NCBI GenBank assembly: GCA_903831455.1
Contig: CAIKXV010000274.1
Span: forward strand, 1-47,432
Origin: an uncultured Pseudomonadota bacterium
Lineage (GTDB): Bacteria > Pseudomonadota > Gammaproteobacteria > Burkholderiales > CAIKXV01
Length of the DNA: 47,432 nt
Reading direction: 5' to 3'
A program made the position numbers and the translations under genes. The notes under the pieces are model-generated. The model did no database searches. It had not been told where the DNA came from and saw nothing but the letters and a program-made list of their open reading frames with translations. Within the stretch, counting starts at the first letter, position 1. Every line of letters begins with the position of its first letter. Shown one piece after another: positions 14,703 through 15,861 of the stretch.

Positions 14703-15158
14703 TCAGCGGTAATGGTGCAGCAGTTCGAGCGGGTAGCGGTGTCCGGCGAGGTGGTCCTCGACGCATTGCAGCAGCAGGGGGCTGCGATGCCGGTCCCGGC
14801 CGCTGCGGATCTCGTCCGGGGTCTGCCAGAGCGCGCGCACGATGCCGTCGTCCAGGCGGCGCGCCGGGTCGTGGCCGACCACCTCGCCGGCGAACGCGAA
14901 GCGCAGGTAGGTCAGCCCGAGTTCGGCGACCGGCAGGCTGTACACGCCCACGAGGCTCGTCGGGCGGAAGTGGTAGCCGGATTCTTCCAGCGTCTCGCGG
15001 ACCACGGCGTCGAGCAGGGTCTCGCCGGGCTCCCAGTGCCCCGCGGGCTGGTTCAGGCGCAGCCCTGTCGACGTGTGCTCCTCGATCAGGAGGAACCGTC
15101 CGTCGCGTTCGACCAGGGCCGCGACGACGACATTGGGCTTCCAGACGTCCTGGGCCAT
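14703..15158 (-). CDS. nudJ: Nudix phosphohydrolase, NudJ type
   Basis: A 151-residue Nudix hydrolase. The Nudix box is intact: G-H-W-E-P-G-E then R-E-T-L-E-E-S-G-Y at the consensus spacing. Family members hydrolyse nucleoside di- and triphosphates and, for NudJ, HMP pyrophosphate. The assignment to NudJ rests mainly on adjacency to mnmA and on N-terminal similarity ([22 protein letters not shown]). The frame is open 16 codons further upstream, without conservation. Confidence 0.88.
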
Positions 15159-15203
15159 GCGGGGGTGACTCCGCTCCTCCGCCCGGCGCGGGTGGCGGGC
15201 GCA

Positions 15204-15235
15204 CAAAAAAGAAAAGCGGGGCTTGCGCCCCGCTT
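15204..15235 (-). terminator. Intrinsic terminator of the lysine-rich small protein gene
   Basis: On the minus strand: a perfect 9-bp stem (AAGCGGGGC / GCCCCGCTT) with a four-base GCAA loop, followed by TTCTTTTTT. It lies 29 bp after the small gene and ends 45 bp before the nudJ start, separating the two units. It is the only classical U-tract terminator I see in the window. Confidence 0.92.
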
Positions 15236-15264
15236 CCCGCTGCGAGCTCGAGGCTCGCGGGCGA

Positions 15265-15390
15265 TTACTTCTTGTCGGCCTTCTTCTCGGCCTTCTTCTC
15301 TTCTTTCTTCGGCTCGGCGGCCACGACGATCGACGAGGCGGTCACGGCGGCGAAGAGGCCAGCGAAGAGGGCGGCAAGCAGCTTTTTCAT
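15265..15390 (-). CDS. Small secreted lysine-rich protein
   Basis: A 41-residue product: signal peptide MKKLLAALFAGLFAAVTAS followed by SIVVAA, then a mature part of about 16 residues made only of Glu, Pro, Lys, Ala and Asp (EPKKEEKKAEKKADKK). GAAGGA sits at ideal spacing before the ATG, and a perfect terminator follows, so the gene is very probably real and monocistronic. I know similar unnamed small periplasmic proteins from Burkholderiales but no function. The 20 codons upstream in frame are poorly supported. Likely secreted by Sec to the periplasm. Confidence 0.85.
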   Translation of the reverse strand: MKKLLAALFAGLFAAVTASSIVVAAEPKKEEKKAEKKADKK

Positions 15391-15406
15391 GGTTTTTTCC
15401 TTCAAG

Positions 15407-15426
15407 GTTGGACTGATCAGTACAAC
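15407..15426. promoter_or_regulatory. Palindrome in the leader of the lysine-rich small gene
   Basis: GTTGGACTGATCAGTACAAC: inverted repeat with a perfect 10-bp core (ACTGATCAGT) and matching GTTG/CAAC outer arms, interrupted by one unpaired position on each side. It lies 16 bp before the start codon, next to the ribosome-binding site. It could be a repressor operator or an RNA hairpin controlling translation. Confidence 0.5.
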
Positions 15427-15861
15427 TGCCGAGGACATCGGCATCGTCAATAACGAACCCTCGCGGGATCGGTTGACAGCGTGGAGACTCGCAGACCGTG
15501 CCTGGCGGGTGTACTGCCTGACAAAACCGTACGGGTCGTCCGTTCGAGTCGGGAATCCTCGGAAAGTTCCCTGACTCGGCGGACAATATTACACGCTCGC
15601 GCGTCACTCGATGTGAAATTTACCCGACACGCCTGACTGTCAGCCAGACGTGACAGGTGGCGAATCGATGCGCGCCGCCAGGGGGCCGATGGCCGGCATC
15701 CACGGTCTGGCCGCGCCGACCGACTGCGCGGCGACCCGGCGGGGGCGAGGGGGCGACGAGGGATGGGCTCGATGCAGGGGCGAGCACACGCGCCGCCCGC
15801 TCGCCGAGCGGGCGCCTTCCGGCGAGCGCCGGGACATCCCGCCGGGTTCGATTCAGCGGCA

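Follow-up and report, generated by a model that had tools for sequence, protein, structure and literature searches.

A tiny secreted lysine-rich protein of Burkholderiales as a probable target of a SigAb-type ECF sigma factor

Introduction

The acid-shock protein Asr of enterobacteria consists of a signal peptide and a Lys/His/Ala-rich, probably disordered tail. Bufferins and MNIO-modified peptides are small and secreted, and some are linked to ECF sigma factors.

SigAb is an ECF sigma factor of Acinetobacter baumannii that is described as Acinetobacter-specific in the available text of a 2025 paper (PMC12153292). According to that text, its promoter, defined by mutagenesis, contains a -35 GTCAAC and a -10 CGTT separated by a 17-bp spacer, and a spacer of 16 bp has little effect. 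The sigAb operon encodes the sigma factor, the 107-residue transmembrane protein AabA and the periplasmic protein AabB, both of which have anti-sigma activity. Copper raises SigAb activity, and knockdown sensitizes the cells to copper and nickel. The direct targets reported there are sigAb, which is autoregulated, relA and the sRNA SabS, and the RpoE motif is given as GGAACTT and TCAAA (PMC12153292).

Here we analyzed a contig of 47,432 nucleotides (CAIKXV010000274.1, the window) from an uncultured Burkholderiales bacterium, which carries a gene for a 41-residue lysine-rich protein. KKHH repeats in some relatives of this protein recall Asr, whereas its own tail is much shorter and lacks His. 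No Asr model appears among its Pfam matches with E up to 10; only CbtA and COX14 are listed, both far below the cut-off. In contrast to bufferins and MNIO-modified peptides, it contains no Cys, and its match to the NCBIfam MNIO peptide model is far below the cut-off (15.8 versus 40 bits). The locus resembles the SigAb system, as far as the latter is described in the available text, in two respects: the small gene has the same -35 GTCAAC, -10 CGTT and 16–17 bp spacer, and an ECF-DUF3619-DUF3106 operon resembles sigAb-aabA-aabB in its gene layout. It differs in that the SigAb targets reported there include no secreted lysine-rich protein, and in that sigAb is autoregulated whereas the Burkholderiales ECF loci examined lack the element.

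Results

The small gene lies on the minus strand and is preceded by a ribosome-binding site:

15265..15390 (stop included), minus strand: coding sequence of the 41-residue, predicted secreted lysine-rich protein (reading frame, relatives, dN/dS)
15398..15402, minus strand: Shine-Dalgarno-like AAGGA, 7 nt before the ATG (sequence)

The ORF translation of 15390..15265 is MKKLLAALFAGLFAAVTASSIVVAAEPKKEEKKAEKKADKK (41 aa). Its hydrophobic N-terminus resembles a signal peptide, which, read by eye rather than by a predictor, would be cleaved after A25, and is followed by the 16-residue tail EPKKEEKKAEKKADKK. The original prediction of a signal peptide plus about 16 residues holds for this ORF, whose tail contains Asp and Pro besides Lys, Glu and Ala. 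The protein contains no Cys or His, and Met occurs at the first residue only. The gene was fairly called an isolated transcription unit: its upstream neighbor on the same strand, csp, is 524 nt away. Downstream, a NUDIX gene (minus strand) begins approximately 46 nt past the T tract of the terminator. Gene order is partly kept: families f29, f37 and f48 have members in which the NUDIX gene stays 3´ of the small gene, and in family f6 csp-clpS lies upstream of the small gene. The stretch upstream of the NUDIX gene (15158-15204, minus strand) contains a TTACAAT-like sequence before the ATG, which is kept in several relatives and is perhaps its own promoter.

Homologues of the small gene are present in 10 of 11 genus genomes, the source genome included, and the other nine are 75–85% identical; the one genome without a homologue (G006) is 84% complete. 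Across the genus set of 10 sequences, pS and pN amount to 0.344 and 0.061, respectively (dN/dS 0.14), with similar ratios for the signal peptide (0.13) and the tail (0.165). The reading frame is under purifying selection. A protein profile built from 22 members detects the family in 132 of the 300 order genomes searched; the genomes compared are related, and many are drafts. The loci L012-L016, which match only weakly, were kept out of the family. Lack of frame conservation in relatives would have refuted the original prediction; the frame is conserved. In a sample of the class, 3 of 369 genomes have family matches, one of them being the source genome; the other two, which lie outside the order, contain three family-like loci, none with the promoter element described below. 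The tails differ in length and make-up among relatives and include Lys/Glu, KKHH-rich and Met-containing types. Three family members scanned against curated families gave no match above cut-off, the plasmid collection gave no match, and the results returned by literature searches contained nothing on this small secreted protein family. Judged by sequence comparison, the small gene is a real gene.

Two structures lie 3´ of the coding sequence, and one palindrome lies 5´ of it:

15242..15258, minus strand: first 3´ hairpin, GCGAGC-CTCGA-GCTCGC; GCGAG..CTCGC is kept in the genus alignment
15205..15238, minus strand: intrinsic terminator with a 12-pair stem and six T (terminator search, relatives)
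15407..15426, no strand: imperfect 20-bp palindrome, 9 of 10 pairs, judged to be a chance occurrence

The terminator stem spans 15238..15211 and is followed by TTTTTT at 15210..15205. It had been called the only U-tract terminator in the window; it is the only convincing one, but 15 terminator-like matches occur in all, of which it is by far the best (the runner-up has a 7-pair stem). Intrinsic terminators are found 3´ of 29 of 30 family members, compared with about 1 of 30 in single-base shuffles. The terminator is real and conserved. The palindrome noted beside the ribosome-binding site exists, but it is unremarkable. The window contains 12 equally palindromic 20-mers, versus 6–15 in each of 12 dinucleotide shuffles, and in the other nine genus members the best 20-mer within the 45 nt directly preceding the ATG has only 5–6 of 10 pairs. 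Folding of the 50 nt directly upstream of the window's ATG is unremarkable (z -0.45). We therefore reject 15407-15426 as an operator, its kind occurring at chance level and not being kept in the genus. The proposal of a tiny secreted lysine-rich protein with regulated or high expression is partly supported: its palindrome argument was wrong, but the conserved frame, the conserved terminator and a conserved putative promoter of alternative-sigma type speak for it.

The upstream region contains the following features:

15472..15477, minus strand: -35 element GTCAAC, in 10 of 10 genus loci, equal to the SigAb -35 (PMC12153292)
15452..15455, minus strand: -10 element CGTT after a 16-bp spacer, in the genus loci, equal to the SigAb -10
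15427..15443, minus strand: hairpin TGCCGA..TCGGCA near the predicted 5´ end of the transcript (alignment, fold)

Neither the conserved promoter element (15477-15452) nor the hairpin (15443-15427) figured in the original prediction. In the alignment of the 10 genus loci, upstream conservation is slight except for TGTCAACCGATC, CGTTA and a hairpin that reads TGCCGA..TCGGCA or CGCCGA..TCGGCG; L004 and L006 each depart from TGTCAACCGATC by a single change. GTCAAC-N16/17-CGTT is found upstream of the small gene in all 10 genus members. The pattern TGTCAACC-N14-16-CGTT has 14 matches in the 11 genus genomes, 10 at the small gene and three elsewhere; the remaining one, on a second contig of G010 (G010:C176:6764-6791), has a 27-base site identical to that of G010:C159, and this is perhaps a redundant contig. 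The reversed control pattern has one match in the same 11 genomes.

The element extends to divergent homologues in the order. A protein search listed 34 matches outside the genus. A locus was available for 21 of them, and 20 of these entered the analysis (L034 was dropped because its match started at residue 3). GTCAAC-N16/17-CGT lies upstream in 19 of these 20, the exception being L026. Among 46 family members that were not used for motif definition, which came from 40 regions picked from the listed profile matches without a locus rather than from the full list, 31 have GTCAAC-N15-17-CGT[TC] within 200 nt, compared with none on the opposite strand (0/46) and a mean of 0.055 in shuffles (maximum 2). 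The strict element is missing in the other 15; one of these has only 22 nt of upstream sequence, and some sit behind the first gene of a tandem cluster. In the assembled promoter set 58 of 59 carry the element, a proportion that is no test of it because 29 of the loci were taken from the 31 positives for having the element; both L329 genes were left out. The spacer is 16 bp in 39 of the 58 promoters, as in the window, and 17 bp in 19.

Transcription probably starts just past CGTT. In 55 of 58 promoters the 38 nt beyond this predicted start are more stably folded than the mean of their shuffles (on average -9.8 versus -5.9 kcal/mol; Wilcoxon p 6.5e-11, relatedness ignored), whereas segments at the coding start show no such gain (mean z +0.9). 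The gain of the window's own hairpin is modest (-8.8 versus -7.4 kcal/mol in shuffles). No sigma-70-like site was found near the small gene, and no Rfam family matches the window at gathering scores. Upstream of the ECF-type element, an RpoE-like GGAACTT-N16-TCGAA occurs at 15570-15543 (minus strand). Such a site was seen by eye in only two of 10 genus loci, that of the window (L002) and L010; in several other genus members a TACACT-like sequence takes its place.

The source genome (G000) encodes on contig 37 (L097/L166) an ECF sigma factor (NF006550), followed by a DUF3619 protein (PF12279) and a DUF3106 protein, the last of which was found by tblastn at 41% identity. The DUF3619 protein has one apparent transmembrane segment, a layout of the anti-sigma kind, and the DUF3106 protein is exported in relatives. 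DUF3106 may resemble Spy, CpxP or CnrX; its comparison with solved structures gave nothing significant. Neither DUF3619 nor DUF3106 is named in the main text of the literature searched.

Relatives of the ECF gene occur in other bacteria. DUF3619 is present in 49 of 369 genomes of the class, with an ECF gene just upstream in 28 of 30 loci fetched. The strict GTCAAC-N15-17-CGTT precedes the ECF gene in 11 of these 28 loci and is absent from 17, compared with a mean of 0.005 in shuffles (maximum 1) and one on the opposite strand. In a separate scan under public names, which covered DUF3106 and not DUF3619 and takes in Xanthomonas, Dyella, Rhodanobacter, Ralstonia, Nitrospira and others, DUF3106 lies behind the ECF gene in 79 of the best 80 loci listed. 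Among these best 80, 79 loci have at least 100 nt of upstream sequence; the element precedes the ECF gene in 51 of them (opposite strand 0) and is lacking in 28. No Acinetobacter locus is among the best 80 listed. ECF-DUF3106 pairs also occur in records labelled Nitrospira, Geobacteraceae and Trichlorobacter (L209, L213, L253 and L270), which suggests either spread beyond gamma- and betaproteobacteria or mislabelled bins.

The element is absent upstream of the ECF gene in the source genome (L097/L166), in all 13 betaproteobacteria-labelled loci among the best 80 listed and in the five loci of the order that were read. Autoregulation is thus apparently absent in this order, and what ties the sigma family directly to the element is evidence from other orders. 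Within the order, the small gene and the ECF gene go together. Among 300 genomes 123 have both, nine the small gene only, 95 the ECF gene only and 73 neither, on the assumption, suggested by the two genome lists, that both profile searches covered the same 300 genomes. The ECF gene is therefore present in 123 of 132 small-gene genomes versus 95 of 168 others (Fisher p 1.4e-13, phylogeny ignored), and in 63 of the 64 genomes with a strong small-gene match (best E under 1e-8 in the family profile search). The nine of 132 genomes with a family match but no ECF match comprise eight weak matches and one strong match (G098).

Discussion

Sequence comparison establishes the small gene with its family, the promoter element and the hairpin behind it, the terminator, the sigma operon and, in other bacteria, an association of this sigma family with the element; from these we infer how the system may operate. 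The small gene is most likely a target of a SigAb-type sigma factor. The factor encoded in the source genome would transcribe it from GTCAAC-16 bp-CGTT; envelope stress, perhaps caused by metals, would release the factor, and the peptide would be made, possibly in abundance, and then exported. The mRNA would have a hairpin at its 5´ end and the strong terminator at its 3´ end, which suggests a short, stable message. In the periplasm the Lys/Glu/Asp tail, a disordered polyampholyte in this view, probably acts through its bulk charge, either as a buffer for protons or metals or as a shield of the envelope. A variable tail with a constant kind of charge favors such bulk physical action over a folded or receptor-binding role, although the role itself is a guess. 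We consider the account as a whole (exported peptide, SigAb-type ECF promoter, release by stress and bulk-charge role) to be probable.

An alternative concerns what the peptide does. A sigma target could instead encode a specific peptide, either a metal binder or a feedback ligand of the DUF3619/DUF3106 sensor, and the His-rich KKHH or Met-containing tails of relatives, together with the response of SigAb to copper in the available text (PMC12153292), point in that direction. His-rich relatives could bind metals; binding by the window peptide, whose tail is restricted to Lys, Glu, Asp, Ala and Pro, would be weak at most. Tail length and make-up also vary widely, a pattern not easily reconciled with a single binding site, and we regard a specific role as doubtful.

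It is unlikely that the promoter, while real, serves a different sigma factor, for example RpoE, or that the element is an activator site, with the ECF-DUF3619-DUF3106 operon a bystander. This reading would account for the lack of an autoregulatory element upstream of the Burkholderiales ECF genes, for the strong family match in G098 and for the RpoE-like site further upstream in the window and in L010. However, in other orders the element stands in front of ECF genes of this very family, and it equals that of SigAb, and the RpoE motif in the available text (GGAACTT, TCAAA; PMC12153292) differs from it. Moreover, G168, which has small genes and the element, contains only three PF08281 matches above cut-off, which by reading are RpoE, an NF006550-type ECF and a FliA-like factor. 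That the transcript is mainly a small RNA and the peptide secondary, as a short structured transcript with a strong terminator and a SigAb-type promoter might suggest by analogy with SabS, a SigAb target according to the available text (PMC12153292), is highly improbable given the constraint on the protein sequence while synonymous sites change freely (pS 0.34, pN 0.06), a protein profile that recognizes the family although the UTRs differ, and the lack of an Rfam family.

Transcription by a SigAb-type factor would give this large family of small secreted proteins, present in 132 of the 300 order genomes, a likely regulator and a testable setting. A further suggestion is that SigAb, although the available text describes it as Acinetobacter-specific, belongs to a much wider class that shares its promoter, with DUF3619 proposed as the anti-sigma factor and DUF3106 as a co-sensor. 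Tentatively, SigAb may be one member of a widespread ECF class found with DUF3106 and often DUF3619, whose output in Burkholderiales would be fast-changing, tiny exported polyampholytes in which the charge pattern rather than the sequence is selected; these might be abundant under metal or envelope stress, buffer the periplasm and possibly feed back on the DUF3619/DUF3106 sensor. The promoter motif was not found in the available text of a Cupriavidus copper transcriptome study (PMC7563307).

A wider regulon of exported proteins is a lead only, as many other matches to the loose pattern sit within long frames and look like chance. The element occurs 50 nt before the ATG of secreted Ala/Pro/Thr/Lys-rich proteins in G000 (L130:1251-1277) and G003 (L140:1080-1105), with a hairpin-like stretch between element and gene in both; this protein is a likely second target in the genus. 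In different families of the order, the element is found upstream of cytochrome c genes (G003, G168 and G202; L134, L150 and L155) and of an OmpA-like gene (G168 and G202; L153 and L159). Tandem small genes for Lys/His-rich secreted proteins occur in G168 and G289 (L147 and L164; G168:C2:12776-13758), and two genes in L147 and two in L164 each have an element of their own.
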